DNA of 64,000 nucleotides from an uncultured Pelagibacteraceae bacterium. Its GTDB lineage: Bacteria; Pseudomonadota; Alphaproteobacteria; Pelagibacterales; Pelagibacteraceae. The first letter of the stretch is position 1. Every line of letters starts with the position of its first letter. Below are positions 6,173 to 27,847 of this stretch, in pieces. The translations under genes and the position numbers were made by a program. Under the pieces are notes generated by a model that saw only the letters and a list, made by a program, of their open reading frames with translations, had not been told where the DNA came from and did not search any database. Location: positions 62,001-126,000 of the forward strand of contig CACCOB010000003.1 of assembly GCA_902547535.1 (NCBI GenBank), read 5' to 3'.

Positions 6173-6753
6173 TTTTGCAGTTCCAAATATTCCTTAATTT
6201 TTTTAATAGGTAAGCCCATTATTGTATCTTCATCACCATCAATATTTGAAAATAAAGCTCTTCCTTCTCCTTCAATTTGATAGACATTATAAGCATACAA
6301 AGCTTCATCGCTTATTTTATTTAAATAAGTAATTAATTCATTTTCAGAAAAGTGCTTCATGGTTAAGTAAGCTTTATCAGTATAGTTCCAAACCATAGAT
6401 CCATTTTTAGATATACAAACCGAACTGATCAAAGAGTGTTTTTTTCCATTTAGTTTCTTCAAAATACTTAAAGCCTCTTCCCTACTTTCTGGTTTTGATA
6501 TTAACTCACCAGTCAGATCAATGACGCTATCTGCTCCTAAAACTAAAGTATTATTAACTTTTTGACTTACTTTATTTGCTTTCAATTCTGCAAGATTTTT
6601 GGAAATAATTTCAGGCGAAACTCCCTCTTTCAACAGACTTTCTTTTATTGGATCTTCATCCACATTCGATACTTCAACATTGCATGGGATATTGTTATTA
6701 TCCAATATTTCTTTTCTAACCTTGCTTTTTGATGCTAAAATAATATTAAGCAT
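6169..6753 (-). CDS. maf: Maf-like nucleoside triphosphate pyrophosphatase
   Basis: Maf proteins hydrolyse nucleoside triphosphates (dTTP/UTP or modified CTP, depending on subgroup) to monophosphates as house-cleaning enzymes. The N-terminal LASKSKVRKEIL phosphate loop and the catalytic-base motif LGADSVI near residue 73 are clear; the end KIKEYLEL fits the family. The substrate subgroup cannot be told from these motifs. It overlaps the upstream ppsR by 8 bases and the downstream aroE by 4. Confidence 0.93.
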   Translation of the reverse strand: MLNIILASKSKVRKEILDNNNIPCNVEVSNVDEDPIKESLLKEGVSPEIISKNLAELKANKVSQKVNNTLVLGADSVIDLTGELISKPESREEALSILKKLNGKKHSLISSVCISKNGSMVWNYTDKAYLTMKHFSENELITYLNKISDEALYAYNVYQIEGEGRALFSNIDGDEDTIMGLPIKKIKEYLELQK

Positions 6754-7573
6754 TATTCTTATTTTTTATTTCATAAATTTTAATTATAGATGCAGCTGTT
6801 TCTTCAACAGACTTTCTTGTTACATCTATAGTTGGCCAATTATTTTCCTTAAATATTTTTCTGCTGTTGTTTAATTCATCTCTAATTTTATCAATATTTA
6901 CATACTCACTATTCTGATCTTCCTTCAAGGAGTTTAGTCTATTTTTTCTTAAATCATATAATCTTTCAGCTTCAGTAACCAATCCAACTACACATGGTGT
7001 AAAATTTTTCTCAGTCACTTTGTTTGGTATAGAGTTTTTATTTACCAGCGGTATATTTGAGGTTTTAAATCCTCTATTAGCCAAATATATTGATGTTGGG
7101 GTTTTACTGGTTCTACTTACACCTAAAAGAATAATATCTGATTTTTCTATATCATCTGTTTGATTACCGTCGTCATGGTTCATTGTAAACTGAATTGCTT
7201 CAATCCTATCATAATACTCCTCATTTAAAATATGTTGACCACTTGGCTGATGGGAAGCTTTCTGATTAAGAACTTTTGAAAAATTTAATATCAAATCTCC
7301 AAGAACACCAAAACAAGGTATTTCTCTTTCATAAGCCTTTTCAGTAAGATATTTTGCTAATTTGCTATTAACAATAGTATATAATATTATTGAATTTTTT
7401 TCCTTTTTCGCTTGTTTCAAGATACTTAAGGTTTGACTTTCTGTTCTTGTGAAAGAAAAATGATTTGTTTCATATTCAAAATTAGGAAACTGTGCTTTAA
7501 GCGCTAAGAAAATTCTATCTAATGTTTCACCAGTTGAGTCTGAAATAAGATAAATTTGATACAAGTTTTTCAT
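6746..7573 (-). CDS. ppsR: pyruvate, phosphate dikinase / PEP synthase regulatory protein (DUF299)
   Basis: Members of this family are bifunctional ADP-dependent kinases and Pi-dependent phosphorylases that switch pyruvate phosphate dikinase or PEP synthase off and on. Diagnostic stretches are YLISDSTGETLDRI at the N-terminus, HQPSGQHILNEEYYDRIEAI near residue 105, and the P-loop-like GVSRTSKTPTSIYLANRGF. At 275 residues it is full length. In Caulobacter and relatives the homologous gene is the first one to the left of the replication origin. Which dikinase it controls is not visible here. Confidence 0.92.
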   Translation of the reverse strand: MKNLYQIYLISDSTGETLDRIFLALKAQFPNFEYETNHFSFTRTESQTLSILKQAKKEKNSIILYTIVNSKLAKYLTEKAYEREIPCFGVLGDLILNFSKVLNQKASHQPSGQHILNEEYYDRIEAIQFTMNHDDGNQTDDIEKSDIILLGVSRTSKTPTSIYLANRGFKTSNIPLVNKNSIPNKVTEKNFTPCVVGLVTEAERLYDLRKNRLNSLKEDQNSEYVNIDKIRDELNNSRKIFKENNWPTIDVTRKSVEETAASIIKIYEIKNKNNA

Positions 7574-7858
7574 GTATAAAATGTTTATAAACTATTAGTA
7601 AAATAAGAAAAATGGAGATTTAGTAATTAGAACTGTTAAAGGTTGTTTTTTTTTACATATAGTTAAGATAGTTATAAATTGTGATTAATTTTATACATAA
7701 TAGTCTAAAATTCAGAGAAATCTAAGATTAAGCATAAAATACCTAATTAATTAAAGATTTTGACTGTTAATAAAGAGTTAATTAAGTGTGGTAATTGACT
7801 AATTTACGTTATTCACATTACATAATACTAATAAAGTAAATAATATATATCTATTTTT
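7574..7858. other. oriC: probable chromosomal replication origin (oriC) between ppsR and hemE
   Basis: This is the largest gene-free gap in the window (285 bases), very AT-rich, and genes on each side point away from it. In Caulobacter the origin lies at exactly this junction, next to hemE with ppsR-maf-aroE-coaE-dnaQ on the other side. Candidate DnaA boxes are TTATTCACA at 7809-7817 (8 of 9 to TTATCCACA) and weaker 7-of-9 matches at 7582-7590, 7680-7688, 7691-7699 and 7765-7773. A TTAA-N7-TTAA pair of the CtrA-site type is at 7767-7781, but such matches are frequent in AT-rich DNA. The promoters of ppsR and hemE must also lie here. Synteny is the main support; the boxes alone would not prove it. 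Confidence 0.65.
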
Positions 7859-8860
7859 ATGAGACCTATAACTAATTGTATTAAGAACAAAGATACAAAA
7901 TCTAATCCTATATGGTTGATGAGACAGGCAGGGAGGTATTTGCCAGAGTTTAAGGAAATAAGGAAAAAAAACCAGGATTTTATAAAACTTTGTCTAAATA
8001 GTGATTTAGCATCTGAAATTACTTTACAACCTATTAGAAGATTCGGATTTGATGGAGCTGTAATATTTTCAGATATTTTAATGCTACCATATGGACTTGG
8101 TCAAAAAGTGCAATTTGAAAAAAATTTTGGACCTAAATTAGGAGAAATAAACTTAGAAAAGATAAAAAATGTCGACGAAATAAGTTTTACAGAAAAAGTT
8201 TATAAAGTTTACAAAGCAATCTCGAAAACGTCTAAAGACCCTTTAATGAAGAATAGAGATATGATTGGATTTGTTGGAGCTCCGTGGACTATCTTAGTTT
8301 ATATGATTAATCAGTCCTCTCCCAAAAAAGGTTTATCAAGTGATTTTTTTAAAGATGATTTTTTAATTAATAGATTGCTAGGAATAATAGAGAAATTTTT
8401 AAAACTGCATATAAAAAATCAAGTTGAGGCCGGAGCCCAAGTTATTCAAATCTTTGATAGTTGGGCTGGATTATTAGAAGATAAAATTCCAGAGTACATA
8501 TACATACCTACTCTTAATGTCGTTGAATATGTAAAAAAATTAGGTGTTCCTGTTATTTGTTTTCCTAGAGGTATTAAAGATTATAAAAATTTTTGTGAAA
8601 TTGTTAAACCTGACGCGGTAAATATAGATTACGATGTTGACCCAAAGAAAATAGTCAATGAAATCAAAATACCAATACAAGGAGGTCTTGACCCAAAAAT
8701 ATTATTAACTGATAAAAAATCTCTTAAAATAGAAGTTGAAAAATATCTTGATGTTTTTAAAGACCACCCATACATTTTTAATTTAGGTCACGGTATACTC
8801 CCTGAGACTAAAATTGAAATGGTTGAAGAACTAATTAAGATTGTAAGAGATTTTAAATGA
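7859..8860 (+). CDS. hemE: uroporphyrinogen decarboxylase
   Basis: HemE decarboxylates the four acetate side chains of uroporphyrinogen III to give coproporphyrinogen III. The N-terminal signature MRQAGRYLPEF (about residues 21-31), the DILMLPYGLG region with the catalytic aspartate, and the C-terminal GGLDPKILL and LGHGILPET motifs are all present over 333 residues. It is the first gene to the right of the probable origin and heads a heme operon; hemH begins inside its stop codon (ATGA, 4-base overlap). Confidence 0.97.
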   Translation: MRPITNCIKNKDTKSNPIWLMRQAGRYLPEFKEIRKKNQDFIKLCLNSDLASEITLQPIRRFGFDGAVIFSDILMLPYGLGQKVQFEKNFGPKLGEINLEKIKNVDEISFTEKVYKVYKAISKTSKDPLMKNRDMIGFVGAPWTILVYMINQSSPKKGLSSDFFKDDFLINRLLGIIEKFLKLHIKNQVEAGAQVIQIFDSWAGLLEDKIPEYIYIPTLNVVEYVKKLGVPVICFPRGIKDYKNFCEIVKPDAVNIDYDVDPKKIVNEIKIPIQGGLDPKILLTDKKSLKIEVEKYLDVFKDHPYIFNLGHGILPETKIEMVEELIKIVRDFK

Positions 8861-15645: not shown

Positions 15646-17517
15646 ATGAAAAATGAGATGTCATTTGATGTAGTCGTAATTGGTGGCGGTCACGCTGGCT
15701 GCGAGGCAGCAGCAGCATCTGCTAGATTAGGTGTCAATACCGCCTTATTTACACATAAGTTTGATACTATTGGTGAAATGTCATGTAATCCAGCTATAGG
15801 GGGATTAGGTAAAGGTCATCTTGTTCGCGAGATAGACGCACTTGATGGTGTAATGGGAGAGGTTGCAGATAAATCAGGAATACAATTTCGATTATTAAAT
15901 AGAAGTAGAGGCCCAGCTGTACGAGGACCGCGTACCCAAAGTGATAGATCACTATATAAAAAATATATGCAAGAAAAACTTTTAAATTATTGTAATTTAA
16001 GCATTTTTTGCGATCCTGTAATTGAGTTTATTTTTGAAAAAAACAATATAATTGGTTTTATTACACAAGAGGGTAAAAAAGTACTATCATCTAAAGTAAT
16101 CCTAACAACTGGAACTTTTTTAAATGGTTTAATTCACATTGGTGAAGAAAAAACACCTGCAGGAAGATTTAATGAAAAACCTTCAACAGGTCTAAGTGAA
16201 CAGTTAGAAAAATATGATTTTAAAATTGGAAGATTAAAAACAGGAACACCACCAAGATTGGATGCAACGACAATTAATTTCGAAAAACTCGAAGAGCAAC
16301 ACGCGGATGAAGATCCATATTTTTTTTCTTTCCTAACAAAAAAAAATATTAATAGACAAATTTCATGTAGGATGACTTATACTAATCGAGCAGTTCATGA
16401 GATCATATCTAAAAACATTAAAAGTAGTGCTATGTACTCAGGAAGTATCCAAGGTGTAGGTCCTAGATATTGTCCTTCCATAGAAGATAAAATTGTAAAG
16501 TTTGCTGACAAGCAAAAACATCAAATATTTTTAGAGCCAGAGGGCCTAAATGATAAAACAATCTACCCTAATGGGATTTCAACCTCTCTACCTGCTGAAA
16601 TACAGCAAGAAATATGCAATAATATCAATGGTTTAGAAAGCGTTAAGATTTTAAGGCCTGGTTACGCAATAGAATATGATTTTGTGGACCCGCGGGAGTT
16701 ATTCCTAACTCTAGAGACAAAAAAAATTAAAAATCTTTACCTTGCAGGACAAATAAATGGAACAACAGGCTATGAAGAAGCTGCGGCACAAGGATTGATA
16801 GCTGGAATAAATGCTGCTCTCTCTATTAAAGGTAAAGAACCATTCATACTTGACAGATCTGAGGCATACATAGGCGTTATGATAGATGATTTGGTTACAA
16901 AAGGAGTTGCAGAGCCTTATAGAATGTTCACCTCAAGGGCAGAATACAGGTTATCTTTGAGATCTGATAATGCAGATATAAGACTTACACAAAAAGGAAT
17001 TGATATTGGTTTAATATTAGATGAGAGGAAATTTATATATAAAGAGAAAGCTTTTAAATTGGATAAAAGTCTTAAAAATATGGAAAATTCTTTAATTTCC
17101 CCTTCAAAAGCATCTCAATTTGGAATTAATATTGCTAAAGATGGGGTTAAAAGAAACGCACTAGAAATATTGAGCCAAAAGTCAGTAAATATGAGTAAAA
17201 TTCGTGAAATTTGGCCGGAAATAAAATATGTTTCACGTGAAATCGATGAGCAAATTGAGATAAAGGCCCACTATAAAGGATATTTGAAGAAGCAAGATGC
17301 AGATATTTTAGCATTCAAAAGAGATGAAAATCTTAAAATACCTGAAAATCTTGATTATGATCAATTCTCTGGATTATCAAATGAAGTTAAATCAAAATTC
17401 AAGAAAATAAAGCCAAAAACACTTGGTCAAGCCCTTAGAATAGATGGAATAACTCCAGCAGCAGTATATATTTTGTTGTCTCATGTCAAAAGAAAGTCTA
17501 TTAAGCATATAGCTTGA
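15646..17517 (+). CDS. mnmG: tRNA uridine-5-carboxymethylaminomethyl modification enzyme MnmG (GidA)
   Basis: MnmG is the FAD-dependent partner of MnmE in U34 tRNA modification. The dinucleotide-binding loop [13 protein letters not shown], the [19 protein letters not shown] signature and the second FAD motif [16 protein letters not shown] are present. The family's active-site cysteines are in the expected regions. The 623 residues are full length; a second ATG four codons in ([11 protein letters not shown]) is an alternative start. A near-perfect parS sequence lies within its 3' part at 17229-17244, where it encodes VSRE. The rsmG start codon overlaps its stop. Confidence 0.97.
17229..17244. 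promoter_or_regulatory. parS: parS-like ParB-binding site inside mnmG
   Basis: TGTTTCACGTGAAATC matches the universal parS palindrome TGTTTCACGTGAAACA at 14 of 16 bases, including the central TTTCACGTGAAA. It is 332 bases before a perfect copy in rsmG and 0.9 kb from parA. It lies in coding sequence. Confidence 0.8.
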
Positions 17518-18158
17518 TTGATTCGAAAATAATAAAAACAGATAAAATTTACCTTCCAAATGTTTCACGTGAAACACTAAAGGAGTTAGAAGACTATTCA
17601 CAATCAATTTTAAATACAAATAAGAAAATAAATTTGATAAGTTCAAGTACAGAAAAGTCAATAAATATGAGGCATATTTATGATAGTGCACAAACTATTG
17701 ATTTTATTGATAAAAATGATATAACTGTTTGCACTGATCTTGGTTCTGGTGCTGGGCTCCCTAGTATAGTTTTAGGTATTTTGATGAAATCAAAAAAACG
17801 AGGTTTTAAGCTAATTTTTTACGAAAAAAGTTATCATAAAAGCAATTTCTTAATAGAGATGGCAAAAAAGTTTAAATTAGAAGCAAAAATTTATCATAAA
17901 AATATATTTGAGGAGAAAAATCTAGTGACAGATGTAATAATTTGTCGAGCGTTCAAACCTTTGCCAGTGATTTTTGATATAGCAACAACGAATTTTAAAA
18001 ATTTTAAATACATAATCATGTATTTAGGAAAGAGTGGAAAAAAAATTTTAAAAGATGTCTCCACGAAATGGAAATTTGACTTAGAGGAAATGAAAAGTAT
18101 TACAAGTGAAAAGTCATCAGTAGTAAAAATTTCAAATTTAAAAAAAAAATATGAATAG
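17514..18158 (+). CDS. rsmG: 16S rRNA (guanine-N7) methyltransferase RsmG (GidB)
   Basis: RsmG methylates N7 of G527 of 16S rRNA using SAM. The SAM-binding glycine loop [13 protein letters not shown] is near residue 76, and [23 protein letters not shown] corresponds to the conserved N-terminal helix region of GidB. The only plausible start is TTG at 17514, overlapping the mnmG TGA. The codons for NVSRET contain a perfect parS site. At 214 residues it is normal. parA begins inside its last codons. Confidence 0.94.
17561..17576. promoter_or_regulatory. parS: perfect parS centromere site inside rsmG
   Basis: TGTTTCACGTGAAACA is identical to the consensus 16-base parS palindrome bound by chromosomal ParB. 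It lies in the 5' coding part of rsmG, 575 bases upstream of parA and about 9.8 kb from the probable oriC, the expected arrangement for chromosome segregation systems. Confidence 0.95.
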
Positions 18159-18951
18159 GAAAATTATTTCAGTCATAAACCAGAAAGGAGGAGTAGGTAA
18201 GACCACTACTGTAATCAATCTTGCCGCTGGCTTATCGATGAAAGGGAAAAAAATTCTTGTAATTGATCTTGATCCACAAGGTAATGCTACTACAGGACTT
18301 GGATTATCTAACACAACAAGTTCTAATAAAACTATTTATAATGTATTAAATGGAAATAAAAAAATTTCTGAGGTAATCCAGCCTACAAGCTTTGAAAATT
18401 TAGATTTAGTATCATCAAATGTTGATTTATCTGGGCTAGAGGTGGAAACAGCAGGCGACAGCCGTAGAGCCTTTAAATTAAAGGACGAATTATCATTGAT
18501 TTTAAACAATTCTGAGCCATCTTATGATTATATCATAATTGACTGCCCACCTTCCTTAAGTCTTCTAACAATTATGGCATTGGTCGCTTCTGATGCACTT
18601 GTGGTACCACTTCAAACAGAATTCTTCGCTCTGGAAGGACTCACGCAGCTTATCAAAACAATTGAAAGGATAAAGTCCAATCTAAATCCAAATTTAAATA
18701 TAAGAGGAATACTTCTGACAATGTATGACAAGAGAAATAAATTGTCAGGAGAGGTAGAAATAGAGGCAAGGAACTATTTTAAGGATAAAGTTTATAGTAC
18801 AGCTGTACCACGAAATGTCAGACTATCAGAGGCACCCTCACATGGTGTTCCAGTTCTTATTTATGACAAGACTTGCCCAGGCAGTAGAGCATATTTCAGT
18901 TTTACAGAGGAATTTTTAAACCAAGATAAACCAGTGGAGAGTGCAGCATGA
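18151..18951 (+). CDS. parA: chromosome partitioning ATPase ParA
   Basis: ParA is the Walker-type ATPase that binds DNA non-specifically in its ATP form and moves ParB-parS complexes, and so newly replicated origins. The deviant Walker A KGGVGKTT starts at residue 12, with IDLDPQGNAT (A' motif) and IIDCPPSLSLLT (Walker B). At 266 residues it is the chromosomal (Soj) type, without an N-terminal helix-turn-helix extension. It overlaps rsmG by 8 bases and parB by 4. Confidence 0.97.
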   Translation: MNRKIISVINQKGGVGKTTTVINLAAGLSMKGKKILVIDLDPQGNATTGLGLSNTTSSNKTIYNVLNGNKKISEVIQPTSFENLDLVSSNVDLSGLEVETAGDSRRAFKLKDELSLILNNSEPSYDYIIIDCPPSLSLLTIMALVASDALVVPLQTEFFALEGLTQLIKTIERIKSNLNPNLNIRGILLTMYDKRNKLSGEVEIEARNYFKDKVYSTAVPRNVRLSEAPSHGVPVLIYDKTCPGSRAYFSFTEEFLNQDKPVESAA

Positions 18952-19799
18952 TCAACCCGTTTAAATCGAAAAAAGGACTTGGAAGAGGACTGTCTTCCCT
19001 AATAGGTGACAGTGAGAAAATTAATGATAAAAAAAATGTCTCAATAAGTTCACTAGTTAGAAATAAGTATCAACCCAGAAAAAAATTTGACGAGATTAGT
19101 TTAGAGGAATTAACTAATTCTATAAGAGAGCGTGGTATTATCCAACCTATCATTGTAAGACCATCTTCTGATGAAGTAGATAAATTTGAGATAATAGCTG
19201 GAGAAAGAAGATGGCAGGCAGCACAATATGCAGGACTTCATGAAGTACCTGTAATTGTTTTAAATGTAGATAATCTTAAATCTTTAGAATTTGCTATTGT
19301 TGAGAATGTTCAAAGAAAAGATTTAAATCCAATTGAGGAAGCTGAGGGTTATAAAAGATTAATAGATGAATTTAGTTATGACCAAGATAAAGTATCAAAA
19401 TTCATTGGCAAAAGTAGAGCACACATATCTAATTGTTTGAGACTTTTATCTCTTCCACGAGAAATAATAGAATTAATTATTGAAGAAAAATTATCGCAAG
19501 GTCATGCAAAAATTTTAGTTGGATTAGATAATGCCATTCTTTTATCAAAGAAAATTATTTCAAAAAAATTATCTGTTAGACAAGCTGAAAATTTAGTACG
19601 TATGCTGAAATCAAATTCTAATAGTCATTCTAAGAAAAAAGATCCAAATATTGTAAGCCTTGAAGAAGAGTTAACAGATAAAGTTGGTATGCGAGTTTTT
19701 GTTAAGAATAAAAGAAACAACTCTGGAACTATTAGTTTAGAGTATAAAGGGGCTGATCAGCTAGAAAGATTGGTAGAGATAATTAAACAAAATTATTAA
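18948..19799 (+). CDS. parB: chromosome partitioning protein ParB
   Basis: ParB binds parS, spreads as a CTP-dependent clamp and stimulates ParA. The sequence opens with GLGRGLSSLIGD (the ParA-activating peptide), has the CTP-binding motif GERRWQA near residue 85 with ENVQRKDLNPIEEA after it, and a helix-turn-helix around KVSKFIGKSRAHISNCLRLL. The C-terminal dimer domain ends LERLVEIIKQNY. All 283 residues are consistent with the chromosomal family, and two parS sites lie just upstream. Confidence 0.97.
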   Translation: MINPFKSKKGLGRGLSSLIGDSEKINDKKNVSISSLVRNKYQPRKKFDEISLEELTNSIRERGIIQPIIVRPSSDEVDKFEIIAGERRWQAAQYAGLHEVPVIVLNVDNLKSLEFAIVENVQRKDLNPIEEAEGYKRLIDEFSYDQDKVSKFIGKSRAHISNCLRLLSLPREIIELIIEEKLSQGHAKILVGLDNAILLSKKIISKKLSVRQAENLVRMLKSNSNSHSKKKDPNIVSLEEELTDKVGMRVFVKNKRNNSGTISLEYKGADQLERLVEIIKQNY

Positions 19800-26783: not shown

Positions 26784-27281
26784 TTAAGTTAGTATAATTT
26801 TAGTACTCTTATTGATTAGTTTTATTAGGATTAAAAAATCTTTCCTCTTAAGCGCAACACATCCTGAGGTTGGCTTTAATTTCTCGCTTAAATGTATAAA
26901 AATTGCGCTGCCTTTAGCTAATTTTCTTTTTTTTGTGTTATAGTTAATTGGTATTATAAAATCATACTTGTTATCTTTTCTAAATAATTTTTCAAAACTA
27001 ATATTTTTGTTTTTTATATTTATTAATCGGTTGTAGTACTTTTTGCTTTTAACATCATCACACCAACCCATCTCTTTTTTAATTGGAATACATTTTAACT
27101 TTGTTAAGGGTTTATGGCATCGATCTTTTCTATATAGTAAACTACCTAAAGAAAATGCTCCAATTGGTGTTTTTTTATCGCCTTCCACCTTCATTTTAGC
27201 AGATCCTTTCTTGCCAATGGAGCAAGGGAAAATAAAATCATCAAAAATAAGTGTTCCTTTATTTTTTAAAATAATTGTCAT
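26784..27281 (-). CDS. YkuD-type L,D-transpeptidase domain protein
   Basis: This 165-residue protein has the L,D-transpeptidase motif with its histidine and catalytic cysteine in IHLSEKLKPTSGCVALKRKD near the C-terminus, and the KVEGDKKTPIGAFSLG strand typical of the family. Enzymes of this type make or alter 3-3 crosslinks or attach proteins to peptidoglycan. No signal peptide is evident in the protein from the ATG at 27281, so export is unexplained. It diverges from the following regulator with only 14 bases between start codons. Confidence 0.83.
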   Translation of the reverse strand: MTIILKNKGTLIFDDFIFPCSIGKKGSAKMKVEGDKKTPIGAFSLGSLLYRKDRCHKPLTKLKCIPIKKEMGWCDDVKSKKYYNRLINIKNKNISFEKLFRKDNKYDFIIPINYNTKKRKLAKGSAIFIHLSEKLKPTSGCVALKRKDFLILIKLINKSTKIILT

Positions 27282-27295
27282 ATTCTTTACTATAT

Positions 27296-27847
27296 ATGAA
27301 TAATCAAACTTTAGTAATTTATGATTTTAAAATTTTATACGAAATACTGAGTGAAATTGAAAGTCACTTAAATTTTAGTTTGATTAGTATAAACAAAATT
27401 ACTGATCTTAATTTAAATACTAAAGATAATTATCTTATTATATCAGAAAAAAAAAAAAATATTGAGGATCAGATTATTATTAATGAATTCCCAATTGATA
27501 TTAATAAATTTATAGAGTCAATAAATATTAAATTCCTAAAAAAAAAATATAATCAGCAATCAGATATTGATCTAGGTATTTATAAATTAAATTTAAATTC
27601 AAGAAAAATTTTCAATCAAGAAAAGAGTCTTAATTTGACTGAAAGAGAGGCAAATATTATAATTTTTTTATATAACTCGAATAAACCAGTAAAAATTAGT
27701 AAGTTACAAACAGAAGTATGGGGACATAATTTAAAATTAGAAACCCACACAGTTGAAACTCATATTTATAGGTTAAGAAAAAAAATTAGTAATGTGTTTG
27801 ATGATAAAAATTTTATAAAAAGTTCAAAGACTGGTTATATAATTTAA
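27296..27847 (+). CDS. atypical OmpR-type response regulator with degenerate receiver
   Basis: The C-terminal ~95 residues form an OmpR/PhoB winged helix: LNLTEREANIIIFLYNSN, then the recognition-helix region THTVETHIYRLRKKIS and the terminal KTGYII wing. The N-terminal part has the strand spacing of a receiver (TLVIYD, FSLISI, NYLIISE) but no phospho-acceptor aspartate where expected; the third strand ends in Ser-Glu. It probably works without phosphorylation. ATG 27296 is preferred to an upstream TTG at 27275, which would overlap the divergent gene. Its stop overlaps the start of the ArfA-like gene (TAATG). No kinase gene is adjacent. Confidence 0.8.
   Translation: MNNQTLVIYDFKILYEILSEIESHLNFSLISINKITDLNLNTKDNYLIISEKKKNIEDQIIINEFPIDINKFIESINIKFLKKKYNQQSDIDLGIYKLNLNSRKIFNQEKSLNLTEREANIIIFLYNSNKPVKISKLQTEVWGHNLKLETHTVETHIYRLRKKISNVFDDKNFIKSSKTGYII

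Follow-up and report, generated by a model that had tools for sequence, protein, structure and literature searches.

The ppsR-hemE gap and its DnaA boxes

The window, the whole 64,000-nt stretch of DNA analyzed here, originates from an uncultured Pelagibacteraceae bacterium (source genome G000; 1.28 Mb in 10 contigs). It harbors five gaps of at least 100 bp (ORFs of at least 60 aa considered). The largest of them, 285 bp long with 81% A+T, is located at positions 7574 to 7858 between ppsR (6746 to 7573, minus strand; kinase-PPPase, DUF299/COG1806, PF03618) and hemE (7859 to 8860, plus strand; URO-D, PF01208). According to Pfam, ppsR is followed outward by Maf, a shikimate dehydrogenase N-domain protein (aroE), CoaE, and a dnaQ-type exonuclease; hemE (URO-D) is followed by ferrochelatase and Rho, with ParA/ParB at 18 to 20 kb. 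The initial annotation had proposed this intergenic region as the probable chromosomal origin of replication (oriC), pointing to its size and to the Caulobacter-like gene order. Both observations were reproduced, and the gap is our candidate oriC.

For comparison, 107 gaps from 12 genera of one family were used, the window's own gap counted in. They were drawn from sets of 30 loci, 18 loci, and 59/60 stretches; one of 108 family stretches (L215) was left out at a contig end, and the collection covers all but 14 of the 122 genomes that gave a hemE match. In 101 of the 107 gaps, hemE was the right neighbor, and these gaps were 257 to 294 bp long, as anticipated by the proposal of a minimal origin of less than 300 bases. 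The other six, all of genus g9, have rho at this place and a gap length of 346 to 353 bp. At these g9 loci (L204, L205, and L210 to L213), rho adjoins the origin and hemE is gone, a hemE homologue of ~31 to 33% identity being found elsewhere. In another genome (G040, C1:358206-359197), the hemE match is split into two pieces in a frameshift-like manner. In a second family of the same taxonomic order (f2), a ppsR match was found in 0 of the 18 genomes listed, and therefore their origin may have another neighbor.

A group of near relatives was analyzed separately. The ppsR identity to the window copy was 91 to 97% in 61 of 80 named loci; 2 of the 80 loci had no hemE and were omitted, as were 18 of 78 named gaps with a ppsR identity below 90%. 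The near group thus comprised 61 rows including the window, 59 of them distinct.

Relative to the DnaA-box sequence TTATCCACA, the gap contains one 8/9 match (TTATTCACA, at 7809 on the plus strand) and four 7/9 matches (7582, minus; 7680, minus; 7691, plus; 7765, minus), in agreement with the counts given in the initial annotation. These five matches with at most two mismatches compare with 1.21 expected from the window's own density. This loose count is not unique to the gap, since 345 of 63,724 stretch positions, distributed over about four further regions, also reach five. A stretch at ~28.5 kb contains six two-mismatch matches and lies above the origin gap by the loose count. The exact motif TTATNNACA is present three times in the gap, and no 285-bp stretch elsewhere in the window reaches this number.

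In the family, TTATNNACA was found 274 times in the 107 gaps, vs. 35.4 ± 5.6 in shuffles (first-order Markov sequences), and at least once in 104 of them. The motif occurs at fixed places, and the conserved 9-mers that the initial annotation had asked for as a check do exist: in 63 of the 107 gaps, an exact copy lies at most 26 nt from ppsR (shuffle mean, 1.2; largest, 7), and further clusters lie ~165 to 180, 135 to 150, 60 to 105, and 45 to 60 nt before hemE. Among gaps of at least 100 bp in the stretches analyzed, the origin gap ranks first for TTATNNACA in the window (5 gaps), in G026 (54 gaps), and in G063 (60 gaps). The origin gap of G043 has only two exact copies, and one of 97 other gaps ties with it.

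Conservation in the 59 near rows distinguishes the individual boxes. The box beside the ppsR start, TTATAAACA (7582 to 7590, minus strand), is an exact TTATNNACA in 56 rows, and the box TTATTAACA (7765 to 7773, minus strand) is exact in 37, with TTATTAATA in 13. The weak box-like sequence TTATACATA (7691 to 7699, plus strand) retains at most two mismatches to TTATCCACA in 52 rows, and its role is doubtful; the 7680 match on the minus strand is variable (14 rows). The main box, TTATTCACA (7809 to 7817, plus strand), is an exact TTATNNACA in 57 rows, reading TTATTCACA in 50, TTATCCACA in six, and otherwise in three. It is abutted by a weak tandem box-like 9-mer, TAATTTACG (7800 to 7808, plus strand), which is invariant in all 59. 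Across 101 gaps, the 9-mer abutting the main box has a mean of 3.56 mismatches of 8 to TTATNCACA, vs. 5.34 mid-gap, and at most three mismatches in 57 of the 101 gaps, vs. 8.5% mid-gap.

The boxes had been described as very degenerate. This does not apply to the window, since TTATTCACA is a full match to TTATNCACA, but it is appropriate for several relatives: of 101 gaps, only 28 have an exact TTATNNACA as the main box (g1, 15/26; g3, 9/12; g2, 0/21; g4, 0/25), and 89 have at most two mismatches there.

A box-spacer-triplet module next to hemE

The sequence between the main box and hemE has a regular structure that was absent from the initial annotation. A four-base spacer (7818 to 7821, plus strand) is followed by the triplets ATA-ATA-CTA-ATA (7822 to 7833, plus strand; 3'-NAT-5' on the other strand), which are putative DnaA-trios, and then by an A+T-rich stretch (7834 to 7858) that extends to the hemE start and presumably opens next. 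The region from 7809 to 7858 is 88% A+T. The triplets are identical in 54 of the 59 near rows; there are five variants, one row each, and in four of these the change is confined to the first base of a triplet. With its four NTA triplets at a distance of 4 bp from TTATTCACA, the window fits the search definition of the basal unwinding system (BUS), a known bacterial unwinding element. According to PMC8287927, this definition asks for three or more 3'-NAN-5' triplets no farther than 16 bp from a DnaA box, mostly of tandem boxes.

The periodicity extends to the family. When the 101 hemE-side gaps were anchored on the ACA of the box site, a spacer of 4 gave a mean of 3.45 NTA of 5 triplets, vs. 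0.91 for 503 control anchors (WNACA elsewhere in these gaps), and at least three NTA of 5 in 88 of the 101 gaps, vs. 4.4% of the control anchors. The same-phase spacers 1 and 7 gave means of 2.73 and 2.64, and the other-phase spacers gave 0.17 to 0.78 (0.17 to 0.31 for spacers 0, 2, 3, and 5). Since the N4 register was spotted in these same related sequences first, the counts are descriptive, with controls, and do not amount to blind testing. The six g9 gaps were treated apart. There, the box site, N4, and triplets were found in five of six by a pattern written after viewing them, and the module of the sixth was recognized by eye; the rho start lies 121 to 127 nt beyond the box.

The module is among the conserved parts of the gap. 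In the 59 near rows, the mean minor-allele fraction was 0.016 for positions 7809 to 7833 (box, 0.017; triplets, 0.007) and 0.039 for 7834 to 7858, compared to 0.217 mid-gap. The corresponding values for hemE codon positions 1, 2, and 3 in the near relatives were 0.053, 0.023, and 0.210. Thus, the mid-gap drifts like third codon positions, and the conservation of the module matches that of second positions.

A reading that leaves the location of the origin untouched is that the triplets are not DnaA-trios and that melting takes place in another A+T-rich part. We consider this unlikely, though it deserves to be taken seriously. Indeed, the whole gap is as A+T-rich as stated above, the series is interrupted in g2 and g4 (CTA-TTA-CAT in g2; at least three NTA of 5 in only 15 of 25 g4 gaps), and the box is degenerate in these genera. 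On the other side, the triplets agree with the unwinding element published in PMC8287927 in their strand, their order, and their constant spacing, and variability in g1, g3, and g4 is highest at the first base of the triplet, with non-modal bases at triplet positions 1, 2, and 3 numbering 52/28/14, 17/3/0, and 15/11/5, respectively; g2, invariant over the two triplets counted, is uninformative.

Conservation is not confined to the module. The whole block from 7786 to 7858 is conserved, its best 25-bp stretch starts at 7793, and 7809 to 7833 ranks 17 of 261 stretches. The best stretch includes TTGACT at 7795, which could be a -35 element, and therefore promoter constraint may add to the conservation. 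Taken further, the conserved blocks could be no more than divergent hemE and ppsR promoters, with the triplets serving as the hemE -10 element and the origin lying elsewhere nearby. The box site ends 38 to 51 nt before the hemE start, so that the triplets are at a plausible -10 place, and one of three sigma-70-like sites in the gap (7817 to 7844, 9 of 12) faces hemE. However, three such sites are not above the number in shuffles (3.9 ± 1.7), and g9 keeps the box site and the triplets without hemE, even if rho might have inherited a promoter. Furthermore, this explanation does not account for the family-wide excess of DnaA boxes (274 vs. 35) or for the skew switch described below. We regard it as highly improbable.

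Skew, gene orientation, and dnaA in complete relatives

GC skew and gene orientation were analyzed in four complete relatives (G043, G026, G063, and G009) using sampled stretches that cover 28 to 58% of the genome. Within the window itself, raw GC skew tracks the strand of the genes and was set aside; in G043, third-codon-position skew, computed separately for the two gene strands, did not show a clear replication signal either. In the four sampled relatives, both switches, that of skew and that of gene orientation, have their peaks no more than ~35 kb from the gap. For the GC-skew contrast, the peaks are at -1 kb (G063), +19 kb (G009), +30 kb (G043), and +34 kb (G026) relative to the gap, and the resolution of this approach is therefore tens of kilobases. 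With the origin placed at the gap, the genes on the leading strand number 457/731 (G043), 249/374 (G026), 233/358 (G063), and 263/386 (G009), corresponding to z values of 5.7 to 7.1 if genes are treated as independent, which operons are not.

When the origin was placed at dnaA instead, the leading-strand genes numbered 461 (G043), 239 (G026), 213 (G063), and 208 (G009), and the GC-skew contrasts agreed in direction with the gene counts in each of the four. Compared with the gap, the dnaA position thus fitted clearly worse in G063 and G009 and somewhat worse in G026, and it did slightly better in G043 (461 vs. 457 genes, 10211 vs. 10089). The skew check suggested in the initial annotation favors the vicinity of the gap, with the reservations that the peaks of G043, G026, and G009 are not exactly at the gap and that G043 slightly prefers dnaA. 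In G043, G026, and G063, dnaA is found on the hemE side at +60 to +63 kb, but in G009 on the ppsR side at -72 kb. Since it is on opposite sides in the g1 genomes and in G009, only an intermediate place fits both. An origin beside dnaA with an unused ppsR-hemE gap, as would follow from a rule that sets oriC to the first base of dnaA in a genome set including Pelagibacter (according to PMC2031905), and as G043 slightly prefers, has hardly any probability left given these contrasts, the switching side, and the lack of any TTATNNACA in the 4.3 kb surrounding the own dnaA.

G009 is informative in another respect: its sole hemE-like match is at 718 kb, ~577 kb from the ppsR gap on a 1.21-Mb circle, and the switches peak 19 to 24 kb from ppsR rather than in the vicinity of this match.

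The region also carries partitioning genes. A parS-like palindrome without mismatches to the consensus is located at 17561 to 17576 (plus strand), 9.8 kb from the gap center, with a second copy (two mismatches) at 17229, and parA and parB lie at 18151 to 19799 (plus strand; PF13614, PF02195/PF17762). In the window and in G043, G026, G063, and G009, parS-like sites were found 7 to 20 kb from the gap; G043 has an additional two-mismatch site 47 kb away. A search of 12 genomes for dif-like sites with an E. coli-like pattern yielded two matches (three mismatches), as many as the reversed control, so that no dif site was identified.

The proposal of a chromosomal origin at the gap is thus supported by the boxes in the family and by the skew contrast in the sampled relatives. 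We are highly confident that the ppsR-hemE gap is the replication origin of this SAR11 bacterium, with DnaA boxes and a candidate box-N4-trio unwinding module.

Proposed function and comparison with known origins

From the arrangement of these elements, we infer the following order of events. DnaA, encoded ~66 kb away, would bind the boxes near ppsR, in the middle of the gap, and in the tandem pair, whose second member is TTATTCACA at 7809 to 7817. A DnaA filament may then grow from the tandem pair, cross the four-base spacer, and continue along one strand of the NTA triplets at 7822 to 7833. This filament would melt the triplets and the A+T-rich stretch up to hemE, and the helicase would then be loaded.

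The location is known from other alphaproteobacteria: the Caulobacter and Rickettsia origins lie between hemE and COG1806 (according to PMC1914354), and they likewise have divergent boundary genes, several DnaA boxes, and a high A+T content. We compared the 28 best-scoring loci of other alphaproteobacterial families among 80 class genomes with a ppsR match. In 26 of the 28, hemE lies across the gap from ppsR, so that the location is ordinary for the class. The gaps of these 26 loci are 327 to 899 bp long, vs. 257 to 294 bp in the SAR11 family. In two loci (L337 and L352), rho and not hemE was matched to the right of the ppsR gap. The box-N4-NTA arrangement with at least three NTA of 5 was found in 0 of the 28 loci when strict boxes and spacer 4 alone were considered, a test that demands more of the box than the count in SAR11 did.

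The module resembles the BUS of Bacillus subtilis and others, as described in PMC8287927 and PMC6669920, in that it combines a box, triplets (3'-NAT-5' on the other strand), and an upstream tandem box-like 9-mer. It differs in that the better box is the downstream one and is followed by a four-base spacer, whereas the published spacer lengths peak at 10 to 13 bp from the better box. Moreover, its triplets are mostly ATA and CTA, and, unlike BUS, the SAR11 origin lies away from dnaA. The own DnaA aligns with 8btg_A over residues 2 to 445 of 447 and has, by hand count, a valine at the place of I190, given in PMC8287927 as a single-strand-binding residue of B. subtilis DnaA. The E. coli origin, which is no longer near dnaA, is seen in PMC6669920 as diverged from the ancestral plan; the SAR11 origin, by comparison, keeps the box and triplets with dnaA 60 to 73 kb away.

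Judged by its sequence, the locus is a compact origin of the hemE/COG1806 type without recognized CtrA and with a conserved box-N4-trio module. A specialist would expect the location, and the anatomy with its conservation is the useful part. Our literature search (titles and beginnings of abstracts) retrieved no description of SAR11 origin anatomy. In "Ca. Pelagibacter ubique" HTCC1062, of the same bacterial group as the window, oriC was "manually identified" and marked in a figure whose legend gives neither its place nor its anatomy (PMC4033161). A V-shaped SAR11 coverage with one origin (PMC9589681) and regions flanking the origin (PMC12421898) have been mentioned, with no origin place given in the accessible parts of these reports.

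On balance, we lean toward the view that the SAR11-family origin has been cut to less than 300 bp around a weak tandem box, a main box, N4, and trios, that it operates without CtrA, and that this geometry has been kept despite a distant dnaA (60 to 73 kb in the genomes measured) that switched sides and despite the loss of hemE. If so, this would be an argument against a drift away from the ancestral box-trio plan in origins that have become separated from dnaA, and SAR11 would provide a natural footprint of a minimal alphaproteobacterial origin. The more than 100 natural variants of one compact origin offer a comparative test of DnaA-trios in a lineage without recognized CtrA. Few cells in the sea are as abundant as SAR11 bacteria, and an exact origin would anchor estimates of their replication in situ. 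One read-depth method puts dnaA-bearing fragments at the origin (according to PMC7852909); here, anchoring at dnaA would be off by ~5% of the chromosome.

A further difference from the Caulobacter Cori type concerns the control elements, with a match above the CtrA cut-off in 0 of 11 genomes and no IHF consensus in the window gap. The best CtrA score was 148 of 350 bits, below the cut-off of a Rhodobacterales-named model that was passed by one of 14 control genomes, and the own full-length OmpR-type regulators scored better against models other than CtrA. PMC2877005 also reports that no ctrA ortholog was found in Pelagibacter. The doubt about CtrA in SAR11 voiced in the initial annotation was thus justified, and control by CtrA was rejected. 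Lack of CtrA does not bar membership in the hemE/COG1806 type, since some origins of this type lack CtrA sites according to PMC1914354. The CtrA-like element TTAA-N7-TTAA pointed out at 7767 to 7781 is indeed present, but the motif occurs 16 times in the window. It overlaps the 7765 box, is kept in 42 of the 59 near rows, and was counted 48 times in the 107 gaps, vs. 26.2 ± 4.9, a moderate enrichment. As no CtrA was recognized, we attribute the element to the A+T richness of the DNA and to conservation of the box.

GcrA is encoded in 11 of 11 genomes, each of which also has three genes of the HU/IHF type, with IHF and HU not distinguished. The IHF consensus WATCAANNNNTTR, with 0 copies in the window gap, was found 25 times in the 107 gaps, vs. 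7.5 ± 3.0. A role of CcrM was also considered; its site, GANTC, is missing from the window gap and present in four of 107 gaps, vs. 15.4 in shuffles, and is thus rarer than expected. The window also encodes a 190-aa protein (27275 to 27847, plus strand) with an OmpR-type DNA-binding domain (PF00486), in which no receiver domain was found. Weak matches, maybe relatives of this protein, are located near the origin in several complete genomes.
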